Of a stretch of DNA of 47,514 nucleotides, positions 14,500 to 41,087 are shown piece by piece. Under the pieces are notes generated by a model. That model ran no database searches. It was not told the origin of the DNA and worked only from the letters and a program-made list of their open reading frames with translations. Every line of letters begins with the position of its first letter. Position 1 is the first letter of the stretch. Origin of the DNA: a candidate division CPR3 bacterium 4484_211 (GTDB lineage: Bacteria > Patescibacteriota > 4484-211); the NCBI GenBank assembly GCA_002084955.1, contig MZGJ01000005.1, positions 1 through 47,514 of the forward strand. Direction: 5' to 3'. The position numbers were made by a program, and so were the translations under genes.

Positions 14500-14874
14500 T
14501 TAGAAACCTCCCACATTTTTAAACAATTCTATTTTAGACTGGCCTTCCTCCGAATTAAAGTGCACCGAGACGACATCTATTCGGTAAGCTTCGGGTAATC
14601 TTTTCTGGTGGTTACGGCTAAGAAATTGATAGGCGCTCTTCTTGAGTGTGCGCAATTTATGATTATCGACCGCTTCAAAAGGTTCCAGCATTTGGTCGCC
14701 GATGCGCGTTTTAACTTCAACAAAGGCCAGTGTGTCTCCGTCAATGGCAATCAAATCAATTTCTCCCCATCGGCGGGCGCGGTAATTTTTTTCGATGATC
14801 TGGTACCCATTCTTTTCAAGAAAATTCGAGGCTATCTTTTCACCAAGCTGACCAAGTGAGAGCGCAGAGGGCAT
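14500..14874 (-). CDS. YraN family (UPF0102) endonuclease-like protein
   Basis: GQLGEKIASNFLEKNGYQIIEKNYRARRWGEIDLIAIDGDTLAFVEVKTR. Confidence 0.94.
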   Translation of the reverse strand: MPSALSLGQLGEKIASNFLEKNGYQIIEKNYRARRWGEIDLIAIDGDTLAFVEVKTRIGDQMLEPFEAVDNHKLRTLKKSAYQFLSRNHQKRLPEAYRIDVVSVHFNSEEGQSKIELFKNVGGF

Positions 14875-22097: not shown

Positions 22098-22652
22098 ATG
22101 AAAAATCTCAAAGAACTCCTCAAGATCGCTCGTCAAACTCTGGAAGAATACGTTAAAACCGGGCGGATACCAAGAATTGAGGTTCAAAACGAGGCCTTGC
22201 GGCAACCTCATGGAGCTTTTGTTACCCTCCGCAAAAATGATAAACTACGCGGTTGCATTGGCATTTTAGAATCAAATCAACCGCTTTGGCAGGTAATTCA
22301 GCAACAGACCATTGCTGCTGCCGCCCAAGATCCACGGTTTCCACCAGTCTCCGAAAGCGAATTAAAAGATATTAAGATTGAGATTTCAGTTCTATCTCCC
22401 TTGCAAAAAGTTAACTCTTGGAAAGAAATTGAACTTGGCAAACACGGCGTAGTCATAGAGCAGGGGAGTCGGCGAGGCGTTTTCTTGCCTCAGGTAGCCA
22501 AAGAGACCGGTTGGGACCTTAAGACTTTCCTCGGCCAATTGTGCTTTCAAAAAGCTGGCCTTCCCTGGAATGCCTACCAAAATCCCCAGACAAATATCTA
22601 CATTTTCAGTACAAAGACGGCAAGTGAATCAGATTCCTCCCAATCTTATTAA
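22098..22652 (+). CDS. amrA: AmmeMemoRadiSam system protein A (AMMECR1 family)
   Basis: HGAFVTLRKNDKLRGCIGILESNQPLWQVI...AAAQDPRFPPVSESELKDIKIEISVLSP. Confidence 0.95.
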   Translation: MKNLKELLKIARQTLEEYVKTGRIPRIEVQNEALRQPHGAFVTLRKNDKLRGCIGILESNQPLWQVIQQQTIAAAAQDPRFPPVSESELKDIKIEISVLSPLQKVNSWKEIELGKHGVVIEQGSRRGVFLPQVAKETGWDLKTFLGQLCFQKAGLPWNAYQNPQTNIYIFSTKTASESDSSQSY

Positions 22653-24443: not shown

Positions 24444-25265
24444 CTACACCTGGGATGCAAAATTAAGACAGACGCGGGTGAAGGTGTCTGGATCTTCAAA
24501 CATAGGAATATGAGCCAGGTGATTAAAAATCTCAACTTTAGGATTGGGCAATAAAGAGGCAATACGTTCAGCGTGAAAGACAGGAATTACCCTGTCTTTT
24601 CTGCCCCAAATTAGCAAGGTTCGCACTTTAACCTCTCTAAAAACTCTCTCCAGGCCTGCGTACCTAATCTGGTGCAGAATTTCCCCTGTGGCGCGGCAGG
24701 TACACCAATCCTCCAAAATCTGGTTTAAAATCTCTTTTCTTTGAAGGTGCGGATTGCCAAAGAGGTGATAGTAATTTAAAACAATCTGCGGAAATGACAA
24801 AGGCAGGAATTTCAACAATTGTCTTCTTAACTCAGAGGGTAGGCGCGTTAGCTGTAAAACCAAAGGTAAATGGAAGGGCAGACCCACCGTATTGGCTAAA
24901 ATAAGCGTTTTTACTTCAGGAAGACGAGTAGCCAAAATGGCGGCAACCCCGCCGCCCATAGACGAGCCGACAAGCGTAATTCTTTCCAAACGCAGTTTGT
25001 TGATTACCTCTTCATAATCCTCCGCCAGAGACCAAAATACATTTGGCCTTCTCTGATAATATTCCAGATCCTTAGGTAGTTCAAAGGCGATGACACGGAA
25101 ATTTTTTACCAAAACGGGGAAACTTTGCGTCCAAATAAAAGAAGAAGATGCCCACCCGTGAAACAAAACCATCGGCCATCCCCACCCCTTGTCGTAGTAG
25201 GTAATAATCTCACCAGAGTTCAGACGAAATTCTTTTTTAAAAGAAAGAAATTCCTGATAGGTCAT
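24444..25265 (-). CDS. Alpha/beta hydrolase
   Basis: VLFHGWASSSFIWTQSFPVL, nucleophile elbow LVGSSMGGGVAAI, LLIWGRKDRVIPVFHAE. Confidence 0.93.
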   Translation of the reverse strand: MTYQEFLSFKKEFRLNSGEIITYYDKGWGWPMVLFHGWASSSFIWTQSFPVLVKNFRVIAFELPKDLEYYQRRPNVFWSLAEDYEEVINKLRLERITLVGSSMGGGVAAILATRLPEVKTLILANTVGLPFHLPLVLQLTRLPSELRRQLLKFLPLSFPQIVLNYYHLFGNPHLQRKEILNQILEDWCTCRATGEILHQIRYAGLERVFREVKVRTLLIWGRKDRVIPVFHAERIASLLPNPKVEIFNHLAHIPMFEDPDTFTRVCLNFASQV

Positions 25266-25504: not shown

Positions 25505-26391
25505 AAGAACTGTTCTTAAAATAGCTTAGACATAAACAAAAAGTTAGACTCCTGGTACAATTAAAAATGCCCTCACCGAACATTTTAAAAGATTACTTTT
25601 CCAATGCCTACTATCACATCTATAACAGGGGTATCAACAAACAGGACATATTTAAACATCCCGATGATTATGAAAAGTTTATCGACCACTTTAAATTGTG
25701 TCTAACCCCGGTGCAAAAGTTAATAGAAGAAAAAAATGAACTTATCGTCAAAAAGGGTCCTACCCGTAGGATAGAACAGTTAATTAATGCCATTAATAAG
25801 GGACTTAAATACAGAACAGATAAAAACATCAGCTTACTTGCCTACTGTCTAATGCCTAACCATTTTCACCTACTTGTCTTTCAAAAAACCAAAGATGCCA
25901 TTACAATATTAATGAAAAGATTGGTTACCGGATATACCGGCTATTTTAATCATAAGTACAAAAGGCGCGGCCCGCTATTCGAAAGCCGCTATAAAGCCTG
26001 CCATTTTACCATTGATCCCCGAATTCAAACCTTATTGACCTGCAGATACATAGAAAGAAATCCTCTGGCGGCAAACATAATCAACATTAACAAACTCCAT
26101 CGCTATCCTTATTCAAGTTTGCAATTTTATGGGAATAGTCGAAAAATGAAGCCAGTCAAACCAATTTGGTTAAGTACCTTAAGGCTAAAAAGAATTTTTA
26201 GTAAGATAAAGCAGAGTCCCAACGGTCCAATTGAAAATCAAATTGCCAAAAAAGAAACTTATCTGGAGTTTGTTACGGGTGATTTACTTTTTAACACAGA
26301 AGACGTCCGCTTGGTAAATATGTTTGAATAATTAATTGTACCAGATTGTAGCGCTTTACGCGCAGTAGCAAGCATTTTAAGAACAGTTCTT
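25505..26391 (+). mobile_element. REPtron-like HUH element: Y1 transposase between nested terminal inverted repeats
   Basis: AAGAACTGTTCTTAAAAT (25505-25522) inverted at 26374-26391; CTGGTACAATTA (25552-25563) inverted at 26333-26344; 29-nt spacers on both sides. Confidence 0.85.
25567..26331 (+). CDS. REP-associated tyrosine (Y1/IS200-like) transposase
   Basis: AYYHIYNRGINKQDIF..., HUH motif LMPNHFHLLVF, YTGYFNHKYKRRGPLFESRYKA, CRYIERNPLAA. Confidence 0.94.
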   Translation: MPSPNILKDYFSNAYYHIYNRGINKQDIFKHPDDYEKFIDHFKLCLTPVQKLIEEKNELIVKKGPTRRIEQLINAINKGLKYRTDKNISLLAYCLMPNHFHLLVFQKTKDAITILMKRLVTGYTGYFNHKYKRRGPLFESRYKACHFTIDPRIQTLLTCRYIERNPLAANIININKLHRYPYSSLQFYGNSRKMKPVKPIWLSTLRLKRIFSKIKQSPNGPIENQIAKKETYLEFVTGDLLFNTEDVRLVNMFE

Positions 26392-29646: not shown

Positions 29647-29674
29647 AAAGATGATAGACTAGTCTATCATCTTT
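29647..29674. promoter_or_regulatory. 28-bp perfect palindrome AAAGATGATAGACTAGTCTATCATCTTT
   Basis: Read directly; shares its 20-bp core with 29725-29748. Confidence 0.8.
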
Positions 29675-29724
29675 AACAAAAAAATACCCCTCTAATTCCC
29701 TGCAGTAACAACAAAAAGGTCCTG

Positions 29725-29748
29725 GTATGATAGACTAGTCTATCATAC
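29725..29748. promoter_or_regulatory. 24-bp perfect palindrome GTATGATAGACTAGTCTATCATAC
   Basis: Read directly; 76 bp centre-to-centre from the previous copy, about 90 bp upstream of the transglutaminase gene. Confidence 0.8.
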
Positions 29749-29836
29749 TGTTTCTCTCACCTACACACCTCTTTTACAATCTTCTTTCATCATGTAGAAT
29801 TAAAGCACTAAATTGCCAAGCCAGTAAGTTGCATCA

Positions 29837-31462
29837 ATGAACAACAGATTAATTCGTATCTTAATTTTAACCACAACCGCTTTTTTTCTCCTGACTATTC
29901 TTTTTCTACCCAGCAGCATCTGTGTTGCCGCTGATGACTTTACCACCGACTACCATATCACCTACACTATAGATCAAGCCGGCGCCGCCGCCATCAATCA
30001 AGACATTACCCTCATCAACAACACATCCAATCGCTATGTTTCTGACTACACACTAACCGTTCCTCTAAGCAAAATTACCGATATCTCCGCCGTAAACAGC
30101 CAGGGCCAGCTTAAAACCTTGGTAGAACAGCAGGAAAACAGCCAAACCATAAAAGTTATCCTGGGGTCATCTACCACCGGATTGGGTACCAAAACAAATT
30201 GGACTCTTACATACCACTGCCCCAATTTTGCCGAAAAGAGAGGCCGCCTTTGGCACGTTGTTATTCCCAAAATTCAACACTCAACTTCCATAAACAGCTT
30301 CCAACTGGAAATTAACGCTTCAGATAAACTGGGAGAACCGCAATTTATCATTCCTTTACCCAGTGAAACTAACCATTTGGATAACATTAATCAATATAAA
30401 TTTTTAAACGCCCAGGGGGAAAAGGTAAAAAACAGCGGCCTGGTAGCCGATTTTGGTGATTATCAACTGTTTTCATTTTACCTAACCTATCATCTCAGCA
30501 ATCCTTTGGATACCGCAGCCGTCACGGAAATTGCTCTTATCCCCAACTTCCCGCCTTACCAAAAAGTTTTTATTAAAAGCCTTAGTCCTCTGCCTAAAAA
30601 AATTGAAAAAGATCTGGATGGAAATTACCTCGCCACCTACCAGTTAAAAGCACACGAAAATGCCGCCATCACTTTTCAAGGCCAGGTCGCCGTTGACCTT
30701 TCTCCCAACAGAGCTTACCCTAAAACCTCTGCCAATTATTACGCTCTTCAAGCCCGCTACACTCAGCCGGCCAAATACTGGGAGACCACCGACCCCGCCA
30801 TTCAAAAAATTGTCCAAGAAAATGTCAATCAGCAAATGTCCACTCAACAAAAAGCCAGAACTCTTTATGCCTATGTTCTTAAAACTTTAACCTATAATAG
30901 TTTAAATTTTGAAGGGGATAAAAGCACCGCGGGGCAGAAACTTAAGCGCCTTGGAGCACTGGGTGCATTAAACGAGCCGGACAATTGTGTTTGCATGGAA
31001 TTTACCGATCTTTTAATTACTTTATTGCGGAGCGCCGGCATTCCTGCCCGGGAACTTGACGGATATGCTTACTCTCCCGACATCTCAAACCACCCCAAGG
31101 GAGATGTTCTCCACTCCTGGGTGCAATTTTACGACCGTGAAATGCAAAAATGGATTAGCGTTGATCCTACCTGGGAATCGACATCAGGACGCGATTATTT
31201 CACCGCCATGGACACCGATCGGATTATTTTTGTCATTAAAGGAATTGATTCCGAAAAACCTTATCCCGCCGGCAGCTATAAAAGTGAAGATAATAAAGAA
31301 ACACAGGATGTTAAAATTTCTTTTGCTCAACAACGAGAGAAGGGGACAATTCCTTTCAGCCTCTGGAAACAGAATTGGGAAAACGAGAATCAAAAGGTTG
31401 AACTGCTGGATAAAATCTTTAGGTGGATCGTGAAAACTTGGGAGAAAATCAAGCGCGGCTAG
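29837..31462 (+). CDS. Secreted transglutaminase-like domain protein
   Basis: Signal peptide/TM; NEPDNCVCMEFTDLLITLLRSAGIPARELDGYAYS...HSWVQFYDREMQKWISVDPTWES (Cys/His/Asp triad). Confidence 0.92.
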   Translation: MNNRLIRILILTTTAFFLLTILFLPSSICVAADDFTTDYHITYTIDQAGAAAINQDITLINNTSNRYVSDYTLTVPLSKITDISAVNSQGQLKTLVEQQENSQTIKVILGSSTTGLGTKTNWTLTYHCPNFAEKRGRLWHVVIPKIQHSTSINSFQLEINASDKLGEPQFIIPLPSETNHLDNINQYKFLNAQGEKVKNSGLVADFGDYQLFSFYLTYHLSNPLDTAAVTEIALIPNFPPYQKVFIKSLSPLPKKIEKDLDGNYLATYQLKAHENAAITFQGQVAVDLSPNRAYPKTSANYYALQARYTQPAKYWETTDPAIQKIVQENVNQQMSTQQKARTLYAYVLKTLTYNSLNFEGDKSTAGQKLKRLGALGALNEPDNCVCMEFTDLLITLLRSAGIPARELDGYAYSPDISNHPKGDVLHSWVQFYDREMQKWISVDPTWESTSGRDYFTAMDTDRIIFVIKGIDSEKPYPAGSYKSEDNKETQDVKISFAQQREKGTIPFSLWKQNWENENQKVELLDKIFRWIVKTWEKIKRG

Positions 31463-31502: not shown

Positions 31503-32843
31503 ATGGAGTTTCCTCAAAATGTCCCAACAACTCCCGGCATCTATATTTTCCGCGGCGTAAAAAAGAGACCTTTATACATCGGCAAGGCGAAGAATTTAAA
31601 GAACCGAATCAGATCCTATTTTCAAACTAAAGTAGGGCCAAAAATAAGGCAAATGCTGGCCAAAGCCAAGGATATAAAATTTGTTGCCACCGATACCGAG
31701 CTGGAGGCTGTCCTGCTGGAGGCAGATCTCATAAAGAGGCTTAATCCAAAATATAACACGCAGTGGAAGGACGATAAAAACTTCAAATACATTGCATTAG
31801 ATTTTCCCCGAGTTTATACAACACGCAAAAAGTCAGTTCCTCACGCTGTTTATTTTGGACCTTTCCCTGATGGTAAAATCGTCAGTCAGGTTTTAAAAAC
31901 TCTGCGTAAAATTTTCCCTTTCCGCGACTGCACTAGAACAAAATTCAATCGTCACCAAAAAATTAAACGCCCCTGTTTGTACTACAATCTAAATCTTTGT
32001 CCGGGTCCGTGCATTGGCGCCGTCTCGGCTCAAAAATACACAGAAAATATTAACCGACTGATACTTTTTCTAAAAGGCAAAAAGAAAAAAATTATCCGGG
32101 ACCTAAAAGCAAAAATGAAGTCAGCCAGTGCCAACAAAAATTTTGAAGCCGCCGCCAAATACCGGGACCAAATAGAACGGCTTAACTATGTGCTTTTGCA
32201 ATTTCGTTATCAAGAAAATTACCTTAAAACGGCAGATCTGCTGGTTGATCAAAAAGCCAGAGAACTAGAAGAGCTCGACAAAGTCCTCACGGGGGTTCTC
32301 CCCCGCAGAGGAAGAACCTCTAACTATCATAGGTTCCGTTTGGAAGCCTATGACATTTCCAACCTGCAGGGGCAACAGGCAACAGGCTCAATGGCAGTGC
32401 TGGAAGGAGGAACGCCCAAAAAATCCGACTACCGCAAGTTTAAAATCCGCGCCGCCGGAAAAGTAGATGATGTGGGCATGATTAAAGAAGTTTTAAAAAG
32501 AAGGTTTTCCAACTTTAAGAAGCGTCCTAAAGAACATAGCAAAAAACACCGCCTCGATCTCTCCTTTAGTCAAGCTCCCCACCTTATCCTCATTGACGGG
32601 GGCAAACCGCAGTTAAACGCCGCTCTCCAGGTTCTTTCTCAACTTAAAATTAATCTTCCGGCAATTAGTCTCGCCAAAAAAGAGGAAATCGTCTATTGCC
32701 AAATTAAAGGTAAATTAGAGGAAATTAAACTGCCTAAAGATTCTGCCGCTCTGCACCTCCTACAGCGCGCCAGAGACGAAGCCCATCGATTTGCCCTCAC
32801 CTACCATCACAAACTTCGGTCCCGTTCACTGACCCACTTATAG
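31503..32843 (+). CDS. uvrC: Excinuclease ABC subunit UvrC, short form
   Basis: GIY-YIG (TTPGIYIFRGVKKRPLYIGKAKNLKNRIRSYF), UVR region, EAYDISNLQGQQATGSMAVLEGG, LILIDGGKPQLNAA; ends at RDEAHRFALTYHHKLRSRSLTHL without HhH. Confidence 0.95.
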   Translation: MEFPQNVPTTPGIYIFRGVKKRPLYIGKAKNLKNRIRSYFQTKVGPKIRQMLAKAKDIKFVATDTELEAVLLEADLIKRLNPKYNTQWKDDKNFKYIALDFPRVYTTRKKSVPHAVYFGPFPDGKIVSQVLKTLRKIFPFRDCTRTKFNRHQKIKRPCLYYNLNLCPGPCIGAVSAQKYTENINRLILFLKGKKKKIIRDLKAKMKSASANKNFEAAAKYRDQIERLNYVLLQFRYQENYLKTADLLVDQKARELEELDKVLTGVLPRRGRTSNYHRFRLEAYDISNLQGQQATGSMAVLEGGTPKKSDYRKFKIRAAGKVDDVGMIKEVLKRRFSNFKKRPKEHSKKHRLDLSFSQAPHLILIDGGKPQLNAALQVLSQLKINLPAISLAKKEEIVYCQIKGKLEEIKLPKDSAALHLLQRARDEAHRFALTYHHKLRSRSLTHL

Positions 32844-37135: not shown

Positions 37136-37987
37136 ATGAACACCCACCAATATCTTATTCTTGCCCTTGACCACCGGCAAAGCCTAAAAAAATTACTCGC
37201 GCCGCATAAGCCTGGTTCCATCACTGCCGCAGAATTAATAAGATGGAAGACAATTGCTTTGCAGTACCTCCTGCCATATGTGACCCACGTATTAATTGAC
37301 CCGGAATTCGGTCTGCCCGCCTTACAAAAGATAGAGAGAAAAAACACTAAAGTTATTTTAAGTATTGAAGAATCAGGATACCAGAAAATTGACGGTGAGC
37401 GACTTACCCGCCTTAAGTACACGGTAGAAGATCATAAAAAACTAGGCGCCGACATAATTAAACTTCTCATTTACTTTAACCCTCGGGCTAAAACTGCCAA
37501 ACACCAAAAAGATCTAGTCCAAAAAATTTCCAAAGACTGCCAAAAGCACAACTTGCCATTTTTGTTGGAAGTAGCCCCCTATGGTTTGGAGCCTTCTTCG
37601 GGGGACGCCCCTCGAAGAGGAGCGACTCCCTACTCAGTCCTAGAAATAGCCAAAGAAATTATGTCCTTGGGCTGTAAAATTGACATCTACAAAACCGCCT
37701 ACCCCGGCGATAAAAACTGTAATCGGCTGACCAAAACTTTAAAAATCCCCTGGGTCCTATTGTCCGGCGGGGAGGAATTCCCAATTTACAGGAAAAACCT
37801 GCAGACAGCAATGCGGGGCGGCGCGGCTGGTTTTGCCGCCGGAAGAACTTTATGGAAAGACTTTATTCGTCGGCCTAGAGAAAAATGGCCGGAGTTCTTT
37901 AAAAAAGTGGCCAAAACAAGGCTGGAGGAAATTATCGGGATCGTAAAGAAAAATGCGCAGGACACAACTTCCCTAACTACTGCCTGA
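37136..37987 (+). CDS. Class I aldolase, tagatose-1,6-bisphosphate aldolase-like (LacD family)
   Basis: ILALDHRQSLKKLL...VLIDPEFGLPAL...LGADIIKLLIYFNPRAK...PFLLEVAPYGL...WVLLSGGEEF. Confidence 0.8.
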   Translation: MNTHQYLILALDHRQSLKKLLAPHKPGSITAAELIRWKTIALQYLLPYVTHVLIDPEFGLPALQKIERKNTKVILSIEESGYQKIDGERLTRLKYTVEDHKKLGADIIKLLIYFNPRAKTAKHQKDLVQKISKDCQKHNLPFLLEVAPYGLEPSSGDAPRRGATPYSVLEIAKEIMSLGCKIDIYKTAYPGDKNCNRLTKTLKIPWVLLSGGEEFPIYRKNLQTAMRGGAAGFAAGRTLWKDFIRRPREKWPEFFKKVAKTRLEEIIGIVKKNAQDTTSLTTA

Positions 37988-38050
37988 GTATTCAATTCCC
38001 GCGGCCACTCCACCAAAGAACTAAGAACGAGACATAAACGCCCAATATAA

Positions 38051-38085
38051 ATGGGGTGATGCCCTCTTTGAGGGTAACACTCCAT
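38051..38085. repeat. Degenerate hairpin ATGGGGTGATGCCCT-ctttg-AGGGTAACACTCCAT
   Basis: 12 of 15 arm positions pair; resembles the hairpins at 39095 and 41042. Confidence 0.6.
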
Positions 38086-38148
38086 TCAACCAACTATTGC
38101 GCGCATAGATCGCAGACTAACCGCAGTACCACTCGGTACACGGTAAAA

Positions 38149-39069
38149 TTACGTCCCGACCACATACTTCCGCAGCAAACAGCAGGGATGCAGATATTTT
38201 TTAAATTTGCGTAAACCCGCTGACCCCAGGTCCTGTTCAAAGTTGATAAATTCCAATTTACTTCTAAACTCTTGAGCTAAAGACCAAAAAAAGAACTCAC
38301 CCAACCCTTTAATCCCGCGAGCCGTCTTAAAATGATGAATCAGCAGTGTCTTTTTAGGTATTTCCTCTAATAGGGCAAAGGCTTTAAGCTGCCTATCAAT
38401 TGCTATTCCAAACATCGTCAAGTTCAATTGATCCCAAAACAGAAACGCCTTTTCTAAACCATCAGCTTCTCGCTGCAGACTCAATATGCTTTCTTTTTCC
38501 AAATTGACCTTACTCCTCCTCCATTCCTCCTGCAGCCGCCAGCAATCATCAAAGTTTGTCTTAGACAATTTCATAAATTTTGGAGAATATAAGCGCTGAC
38601 ATAAATTTCTCTTCCTCCTCAAATTCGCAAAATCAGCGCCTAGCAGGTCAGCCTGGTGAGCAATTTTATAGAGATAATCGCAATTGTCTCTATTCAGCTT
38701 AACCCGAAACCGCTCCGGGGACTCAAGAGCCTTAATAGCTAACTCTGGTACAAAAGTTAAGTAATTTATTTTTAGGCTGGTTCCGGCATACTCAAGAAGG
38801 GCATTCAATGACTGGTCCATACAGTTCTTCCCCAAAATGCTAAGAAGGGTCTCACCGCTAACCGAATCATCAAAAACCACCACCAGATTTTCATTTAAAT
38901 TTGAAATTTTAAGAGAATTATTGTTGTCCAGGGTAAAAAGGCTCGTAAAAACAAAGTCAGAATAGTTGCTGTTTAAATAGTTGTTAAAGCCACTGATGGT
39001 TGATTGGCAAGTAAGACCAAAAGGTTCAAACTGTGGAAAGTGAGGAATTTTTAGCCTGCTTTCGCGCAC
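38149..39069 (-). CDS. DUF2156/phosphatidylglycerol lysyltransferase-like GNAT protein
   Basis: FEPFGLTCQSTISGFNNYLNSNYSDFVFTSLFTL...FINFEQDLGSAGLRKFKKYLHPCCLLRKYVV. Confidence 0.75.
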   Translation of the reverse strand: MRESRLKIPHFPQFEPFGLTCQSTISGFNNYLNSNYSDFVFTSLFTLDNNNSLKISNLNENLVVVFDDSVSGETLLSILGKNCMDQSLNALLEYAGTSLKINYLTFVPELAIKALESPERFRVKLNRDNCDYLYKIAHQADLLGADFANLRRKRNLCQRLYSPKFMKLSKTNFDDCWRLQEEWRRSKVNLEKESILSLQREADGLEKAFLFWDQLNLTMFGIAIDRQLKAFALLEEIPKKTLLIHHFKTARGIKGLGEFFFWSLAQEFRSKLEFINFEQDLGSAGLRKFKKYLHPCCLLRKYVVGT

Positions 39070-39094: not shown

Positions 39095-39131
39095 AATAGG
39101 GTGACACCCTTTTTGAGGGTGTCACCCTATT
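39095..39131. repeat. Hairpin AATAGGGTGACACCC-tttttga-GGGTGTCACCCTATT
   Basis: Perfect 15-bp stem, 7-nt loop. Confidence 0.85.
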
Positions 39132-39335: not shown

Positions 39336-40934
39336 ATGCCCATCACAACCCAATTACTCAAACAAATACTTACACAAAAAGCCAGCTCAAAAGAGGATTT
39401 GAGAAAAATTAAGCGGAAATTTTCCCGGGAGCATAAAATCCCTTTAATAAAAAACTCCGACCTGCTGGCCGAGTACTGGAGACAAGTGAATCGGGGGAGT
39501 ATAAAAAGAGATTACTTCCTTGAGGACCTTTTGCAGTTAAAAAGTACCCGTACCCTTTCCGGAGTCTCTCCGGTAGCCATTTTTACTAAACCTTACCCCT
39601 GTCCTGGGAAATGCATCTATTGTCCCACAAAAAGCAATGTTCCCAAAAGCTACCTGCCAAATGAGCCGGCGGTCATGAGAGCGGAGCTTAATCAATATGA
39701 CCCAATTCTGCAGATCAAAAACCGCCTGCAGCAATATAAAAATATCGGTCATCCCACTGACAAAATCGACCTAATTATTAAAGGCGGCACCTGGTCCGCC
39801 TACCCGGTCAGCTATCGAAAATACTTTATTAAACAGTGCTACGCGGCTTGCAACAACAAGCTTCAGCCCGCACAGGAGCATACCAGCCTATTTAAAATTC
39901 AAAAAATTAACGAAACAGCCCAACACCGCCTTATCGGCATTAACATAGAAACTCGACCCGATCTAATAAATGAAGAGGAAATCAAAAGGCTAAGAAATTT
40001 TGGCGTGACGCGGGTAGAACTCGGAGTCCAAACCCTTGATGACAAAATCTTAAAACTGGTTAGGCGTGGACACGGGGTAAAAGATACGATTCGGGCAACC
40101 AGACTCCTAAAAGAAGCTGGTTTTAAAGTTGGATACCACATGATGCCCGGACTTCCCGGCAGTAATCCCCAAAAAGACGTGGAGATGTTTAAACAATTAT
40201 TTACTGATCCCCGTTTTCAACCTGACATGCTAAAAATCTACCCCTGCGTAATTACCAAAAACACCCAGCTTTATACCTGGTACAAGCAAGGAAAATACAC
40301 CCCCTATAACGACCGGGAGTTAATTGAACTCTTAATTGAAATAAAAAAGATCCTTCCGCCCTATGTACGTGTAGACCGGATTGGACGGGACATACCGGCA
40401 CCGGATATTATGGCCGGGTCTAAAATTTCCAATATCAGGCAGGTCGTCCAGAAAAGGATGAAAGAGCAAGAATTATCCTGTCAATGCATCCGTTGCCGTG
40501 AAATAAGAGAACATTCCAAGAAAATAATCTCACCGACATTAAAGAAAATTACCTATCCTGCCTCCGGCGGAAGGGAATATTTCCTTTCGTTTGTGTCAAC
40601 CGTGCCCTCATCAAGAGGCAAAGTCCTAACAAGAAATTTGCTGGCACTGCTTAGATTAAGGTTTACCACAGACAATAAAGCGATTATCCGTGAACTGCAC
40701 ACTTATGGAGTCTCAATTAAAATAGGGATCACCCCTCGTAGAGGCACAACCTTCAAGAAGGGGGTACAGCATCGAGGATTAGGCAAGAAACTCCTAGAAG
40801 CAGCCGAAAACATTGTCAACAAAAAGGGGGTTAACAAAATCGCTGTTATCTCCGGAGTGGGAGTCAGGGAATATTATCGAAAACTGGGATATAAACTAGA
40901 AGGGACATATATGGTAAAGAAACTGGGTGATTGA
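39336..40934 (+). CDS. Elp3-family tRNA uridine-34 modification enzyme (radical SAM plus GNAT)
   Basis: SGVSPVAIFTKPYPCPGKCIYCPTKSNVPKSYLPNEPAVMRAELNQYDP...RVELGVQTLDD...C-terminal GNAT VQHRGLGKKLLEAAE. Confidence 0.95.
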   Translation: MPITTQLLKQILTQKASSKEDLRKIKRKFSREHKIPLIKNSDLLAEYWRQVNRGSIKRDYFLEDLLQLKSTRTLSGVSPVAIFTKPYPCPGKCIYCPTKSNVPKSYLPNEPAVMRAELNQYDPILQIKNRLQQYKNIGHPTDKIDLIIKGGTWSAYPVSYRKYFIKQCYAACNNKLQPAQEHTSLFKIQKINETAQHRLIGINIETRPDLINEEEIKRLRNFGVTRVELGVQTLDDKILKLVRRGHGVKDTIRATRLLKEAGFKVGYHMMPGLPGSNPQKDVEMFKQLFTDPRFQPDMLKIYPCVITKNTQLYTWYKQGKYTPYNDRELIELLIEIKKILPPYVRVDRIGRDIPAPDIMAGSKISNIRQVVQKRMKEQELSCQCIRCREIREHSKKIISPTLKKITYPASGGREYFLSFVSTVPSSRGKVLTRNLLALLRLRFTTDNKAIIRELHTYGVSIKIGITPRRGTTFKKGVQHRGLGKKLLEAAENIVNKKGVNKIAVISGVGVREYYRKLGYKLEGTYMVKKLGD

Positions 40935-41041: not shown

Positions 41042-41087
41042 GGGAATAAGGTGACACCCTTTTTAAGGGTGTCACCCCTTTTATCCC
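41042..41087. repeat. Hairpin GGTGACACCC-ttttta-GGGTGTCACC with imperfect extension
   Basis: Near copy of 39095-39131, on the other side of the Elp3 gene. Confidence 0.82.

Follow-up and report, generated by a model that had tools for sequence, protein, structure and literature searches.

In REP/RAYT systems (REPtrons, REPINs) multi-copy short palindromes flank a RAYT gene encoding a Y1/HUH transposase, each palindrome type goes with one RAYT clade, and some of the palindromes lie within genes. Cognate mobilisation of REPs by the RAYT has been proposed for these systems (PMC6006769). Intragenic REPs have been described in several bacteria, many of them in genes for DNA repair, tRNA synthetases or tRNA modification (PMC3733652). 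Rickettsia palindromic elements (RPE) are in-frame insertions in unrelated proteins (PMC10969869), and PARCELs are palindromic DNA translated as a tandem peptide repeat (PMC2996958).

The element described here, from candidate division CPR3 bacterium 4484_211 and its sister genera, is of the REP/RAYT type and enters genes in frame as well, a kind already known from intragenic REPs and RPE. It shares with REP/RAYT systems the multi-copy palindromes flanking a RAYT gene of one clade, but the foot of its hairpin lacks the GTAG tag (TAG or ATAG stands at both ends) and its self-palindromic unit recurs every 18 nt. Intragenic GTAG/CGTC REPs (PMC3733652) are likewise palindromes read in frame within genes for excinucleases, tRNA synthetases and tRNA modification, but they belong to other sequence families and other taxa, and their dimers or groups commonly code for 20-30 aa, compared with ~10-16 aa here. 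RPE likewise are palindromic repeats lying in frame within many unrelated proteins (PMC10969869); they are, however, ~150 bp long, whereas the arrays described here span 30-48 nt and a RAYT gene adjoins the copies. PARCELs (PMC2996958) are amphipathic repeats of 25 residues that form tracts in ORFs of unassigned function, unlike the scattered insertions into housekeeping genes seen here. A first-pass annotation of the locus had proposed an analogy with the Rickettsia elements. The analogy holds for in-frame insertion into unrelated proteins, but REP/RAYT systems are the closer comparison because a RAYT gene adjoins the copies. A partial literature search did not find an earlier report of such elements in this bacterial group.

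The window, that is, the whole stretch of 47,514 nucleotides that was analysed, encodes three proteins with a common P-R-R-G-x-T core. Their genes are:

31503-32843, plus strand: UvrC-like excinuclease subunit gene, host of a copy (PF08459, PF01541, PF02151)
37136-37987, plus strand: LacD/DeoC-like aldolase gene, host of a copy (PF01791, E 3.3e-24)
39336-40934, plus strand: Elp3-like radical-SAM/acetyltransferase gene, host of a copy (PF16199, PF04055; PDB 5l7j, E 1.7e-135)

PRRG.T matches three times in the 36 proteins encoded by the window (13,317 aa in all), where residue shuffling predicts 0.01; this comparison serves only as a lead because the pattern was picked post hoc. The codons reported in the first-pass annotation for UvrC (CCC CGC AGA GGA AGA ACC) and for Elp3 (CCT CGT AGA GGC ACA ACC) read as stated. 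The quoted LacD stretch was also found, starting at 37589 rather than 37588, inside the plus-strand ORF; positions 37589-37630 (GAGCCTTCTTCGGGGGACGCCCCTCGAAGAGGAGCGACTCCC) encode EPSSGDAPRRGATP, flanked by PYGL and YSVLEIAKE. The palindromic origin claimed for this stretch was supported, but the pairing drawn for it (CCTTCTTCGGGGG with CCCCTCGAAGAGG) was not: the true axis is GGGGACGCCCCTC-GAA-GAGGAGCGACTCC. The fold of the whole LacD stretch is barely above that of shuffles (z -1.6).

A hairpin scan of the window yielded three intergenic palindromes of one design, which were used to build the pattern for the genome search:

38050-38086, no strand: intergenic palindrome copy AATGGGGTGATGCCCTCTTTGAGGGTAACACTCCATT, stem 17, DNA fold z -5.5; a family copy in the genome search
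39095-39131, no strand: intergenic intact palindrome copy AATAGGGTGACACCCTTTTTGAGGGTGTCACCCTATT, fold z -9.1; 19/19 on the family model
41049-41077, no strand: intergenic palindrome copy with core GGTGACACCCTTTTTAAGGGTGTCACC at 41050-41076, fold z -6.9; 18/19 on the family model

An Rfam search of the window returned only tRNAs. The palindromes at 38050 and 39095 bracket a minus-strand gene (38149-39069) with a phosphatidylglycerol lysyltransferase C-terminal domain, which is located between lacD and elp3; in one sister genus and in the fourth genus of the family (G002 and G003, see below) lacD and elp3 are near neighbours, ~100 bases apart. A near-identical pair of other palindromes (core GATAGACTAGTCTATC), possibly an operator pair, is found at 29647-29674 and 29723-29750, upstream of the gene at 29837.

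The search covered the host genome (G000, 826 kb), two sister genera (G001, G002), the fourth genus of the family (G003) and the other members of a 380-genome sample of the phylum. A first consensus, GGAGT...ACTCC, drawn in part from the three coding copies, had no match in the 380 genomes, nor did a pattern with a spacer one base too short. The pattern derived from the window palindromes found 28 copies in G000 and 17, with other arms, in G001 (reversed control, 0). The design that emerged, GGG-N5-CCCT-N5-AGGG-N5-CCC, consists of two small palindromes 18 nt apart. Each half is itself palindromic (11-nt unit GGG-N5-CCC), the halves repeat every 18 nt, and some arrays contain three. Exact matches to this general design numbered 22 in G000, 21 in G001 and 15 in G002, with merely four more in the rest of the 380 genomes. 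When one mismatch was allowed, the counts were 30, 27 and 15, respectively, with none for the reversed pattern, and G003 had no copy. Thus the genome-wide search suggested in the first-pass annotation did find a multi-copy palindrome, intact between genes and in frame within genes. A scan of contigs of other bacteria, with the own genome left out, gave two isolated matches in unrelated bacteria, which were taken as chance. In a distant genome of the phylum (G182) three copies of the same design carry other arms, GGGCTTAGCCCTGCGGCAGGGCTAAGCCC (C5:17920, C13:15354, C20:85135).

The arms are genus specific: GGGTGACACCC in G000, GGGTTTAACCC plus GGGGTCRCCCC in G001, and GGGATCATCCC in G002. The inner arms are, by genus, TGACA / TTNAA and GTCRC / ATCAT, and both sides of the stem are altered. 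Each inner arm pair is Watson-Crick in 57-69 of 72 copies, with at least three pair types, which indicates that the palindrome was kept while its letters changed. The copies are flanked by ATAG...CTAT or AAGG...CCAT; inspection of the hairpin foot for GTAG (or GGAG) showed no GTAG consensus. Many intergenic copies of G000 are embedded in a bigger, BIME-like composite repeat (e.g. ACTGCAGTTAGTGCGCG...CCATTCAAATAATTATTACTGCGGTTGGTGCGC), and several are near contig ends.

In all three genera a RAYT gene of one clade, Y1_Tnp (PF01797), sits between two copies of the palindrome:

G000, contig C12, between the copies at 14612 and 15334: RAYT gene, PF01797 above the cut-off
G001, contig C10, between the copies at 25012-25058 and 25788-25834: RAYT gene, PF01797 above the cut-off
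G002, contig C39, between the copies at 22160 and 22883: RAYT gene, PF01797 just under the cut-off (21.6 of 23 bits)

The proteins of this flanked clade carry an HFH motif and are 50-55% identical to each other, compared with 28-37% identity to the other RAYT-type genes of the family. Against the NCBIfam model of REP-associated tyrosine transposases (NF047646) the G000 and G002 proteins scored 30.6-37.7 bits, under the cut-off of 80; judged by sequence, the flanked RAYT is homologous to this model but divergent. In G003, which has no copies, the sole Y1 hit matches the IS200 type over its full length. The window has a RAYT gene of its own (25567-26331), which was considered as the mover and rejected: its flanks bear other inverted repeats, and it shares 33-34% identity with the flanked clade, to which it does not belong. 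These flanks (25505-25564 and 26332-26391) contain an inverted pair, CTGGTACAATTAA/TTAATTGTACCAG, and the near-palindromes AAGAACTGTTCTT/AAGAACAGTTCTT.

The transposase is linked to the element by position and co-divergence only, and from this link we infer that the flanked RAYT would be the cognate mobiliser of these palindromes. The copies could instead be selected, non-mobile hairpins functioning as terminators, protein-binding sites or mRNA stabilisers. Such roles are possible for REPs and most copies of G000 are intergenic, but this reading has to accommodate copies within essential coding regions, at sites mostly different in each genus, and copies that form arrays and flank a transposase gene in 3/3 genera. 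It also has to accommodate a single half-unit inside the G001 RAYT gene itself (peptide GFNPVQ, C10 about 25155-25172). We consider it very improbable.

After merging of overlapping matches, 14 intact copies were found within ORFs and read through in frame, which agrees with the earlier proposal that several unrelated ORFs tolerate the element. Nearly every one has homologous protein sequence on either side. Conserved genes are among the hosts. The in-gene copies of G001 are in genes for a glycosyltransferase, asparagine synthase, Elp3, UvrB, PheT, MnmA, a LytR_C protein and a family-2 glycosyltransferase, those of G002 in genes for Elp3, PheT, two glycosyltransferases and UvrC. In G000 the intact in-gene copy is in a gene encoding a Pro-rich protein (C23:23802). 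Two more copies lengthen C-termini (L090, L156). The UvrB insert (NRVQPSNRVKPSNRVEP) adds ~15 aa net right past the conserved SATP motif and is not present in solved UvrB structures. UvrC and Elp3 bear independent intact copies in the sister genera. In PheT a triple unit occupies the identical codon position in G001 and G002; since the arms are genus specific and the spacers are opposed (TATTTTA versus TAAAATA), we take the two to have inserted independently. In Elp3 the G001, G002 and window copies are at three different places. Elp3 of two other genomes of the phylum (G029 and G020; L020, L023) contains other odd stretches, SSVIPSEVEESRSLRSSRDD and CRGGVSPPNTTSVFP, which look like read-through repeats too.

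The recurrence of the hosts could mean that the in-gene copies have been domesticated and that the G..P..G..P loops function in repair and tRNA-modifying enzymes. Elp3 is hit in three genera, by intact copies in two of them and by the probable copy of the window in the third; UvrC is hit in two genera, as is one and the same site of PheT, and the published survey of intragenic REPs likewise names repair, tRNA-synthetase and tRNA-modifying genes (PMC3733652). However, the positions in Elp3 and UvrC vary by genus and the window copies are decaying, which looks like tolerance; domestication seems to us quite unlikely. One frame of the element meets a TAG and two are open in either orientation, and arrays span 12+18n nt, so a copy that has landed in a loop can be kept as a peptide. 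It is possible, though doubtful, that the 18-nt unit, which keeps arrays a multiple of three with two frames open, was shaped for survival in genes, and that insertion into repair and tRNA-modifying genes is regular, with independent re-hits.

To relate the three window sites to this family, a score was defined on 14 fixed bases and 5 arm pairs (maximum 19), using intact copies with the LacD, UvrC and Elp3 sites left out. Every position of the window was scored, and the chance level was obtained from shuffles. Five sites reached at least 16/19, against 0.015 expected: LacD, UvrC and the three intergenic palindromes. Decayed coding copies were counted within the window only:

32292-32320, plus strand: decayed palindromic element translated as GVLPRRGRTS within UvrC; 16/19, with 5/5 inner arm pairs complementary
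37601-37629, plus strand: decayed palindromic element translated as GDAPRRGATP within the LacD-like aldolase; family-model score 16/19
40725-40753, plus strand: probable decayed element translated as GITPRRGTTF within Elp3; assigned by frame, length difference and half-unit match

In LacD the half-unit GGGGACGCCCCT is one base off the G001 unit GGGGTCGCCCCT, and just ahead of GDAPRRGATP the segment GLEPSS (37583-37600), which holds the 18-nt period, may be a third unit. The Elp3 site scores 12, which is not significant (~20 chance sites are expected at that level). Its TAGGGATCACCCCT is one base off the G002 half-unit TAGGGATCATCCCT, the only match in the window at two or fewer mismatches, and it shows the 6-residue period (GITPRR-GTTFKK). 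The Elp3 copy is probable and the weakest of the three.

The sites were also compared with orthologues and, by solved-structure alignments, with known structures. Relative to orthologues of the same family the net gain is ~5 residues in LacD, ~6 in UvrC and 6-7 in Elp3. The UvrC site is the linker ahead of the RNase H-like domain, and the solved-structure alignment begins right past it, at residue 277. In Elp3 the loop ahead of the acetyltransferase QHRGLG motif is ~6 aa longer than in most relatives and in the solved Dehalococcoides structure 5l7j. Of the predicted in-frame insertion with clean boundaries, the excess length over orthologues was confirmed, but not a clean unit of 14 residues, the gain being 5-7. 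As the nearest orthologues are only ~55% identical and a close empty site was not found, the alignments do not show precisely where the window copies begin and end. Since the gains (5, 6 and 6-7 aa) are below the full 10, either the loops were trimmed as well or the boundaries differ from those of intact elements. The LacD and Elp3 half-units are nearer to sister-genus subfamilies, and on this resemblance the trio does not appear to descend from the now-abundant GGGTGACACCC subfamily and looks older than the present subfamily of G000.

Could three loops have converged on PRRGxT by chance, with the palindrome family elsewhere unrelated? The motif was chosen after looking, among many possible five-residue patterns, and the Elp3 site is not significant by itself. 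Against coincidence, a model built without LacD and UvrC scores both at 16/19, all three sites show the period of 18 nt (6 residues) and share the G..P..G frame with the intact coding copies, all three fall where length varies, and UvrC and Elp3 were hit independently in sister genera. We regard coincidence as unlikely. The outcomes that the first-pass annotation had named as contrary to its reading did not occur: further copies exist, and distant orthologues have no counterpart at those sites. Its proposal of a mobile palindromic mini-element is thus supported by the multi-copy family, the in-frame copies and these orthologues.

Our preferred explanation, to which we assign a probability of about 0.82, is that the PRRG stretches of the window are decayed copies of a short modular palindromic mobile element, probably moved by a RAYT as single-stranded hairpins. 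The cognate RAYT, a TnpA-REP-like Y1/HUH transposase whose gene lies in another part of the genome, would be the mover. A copy landing in a protein loop would be retained as an added peptide of the form G-x-x-P-x-x-G-x-x-P (or R-x-x-P), which selection would merely tolerate.

Rickettsia and a few bacteria rich in REPs have already provided examples of intragenic palindromes. In the present case a single lineage with small genomes displays the transposase, intact intergenic copies, fresh and decayed in-frame copies, and genus-specific arms that co-vary. With the whole system visible in one lineage, the conversion of selfish DNA into protein loops can be followed, and the repeated hits in genes for excinucleases, tRNA synthetases and tRNA modification invite an explanation. 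For annotators, odd G-x-x-P-x-x-G loops in such proteins are insertions.
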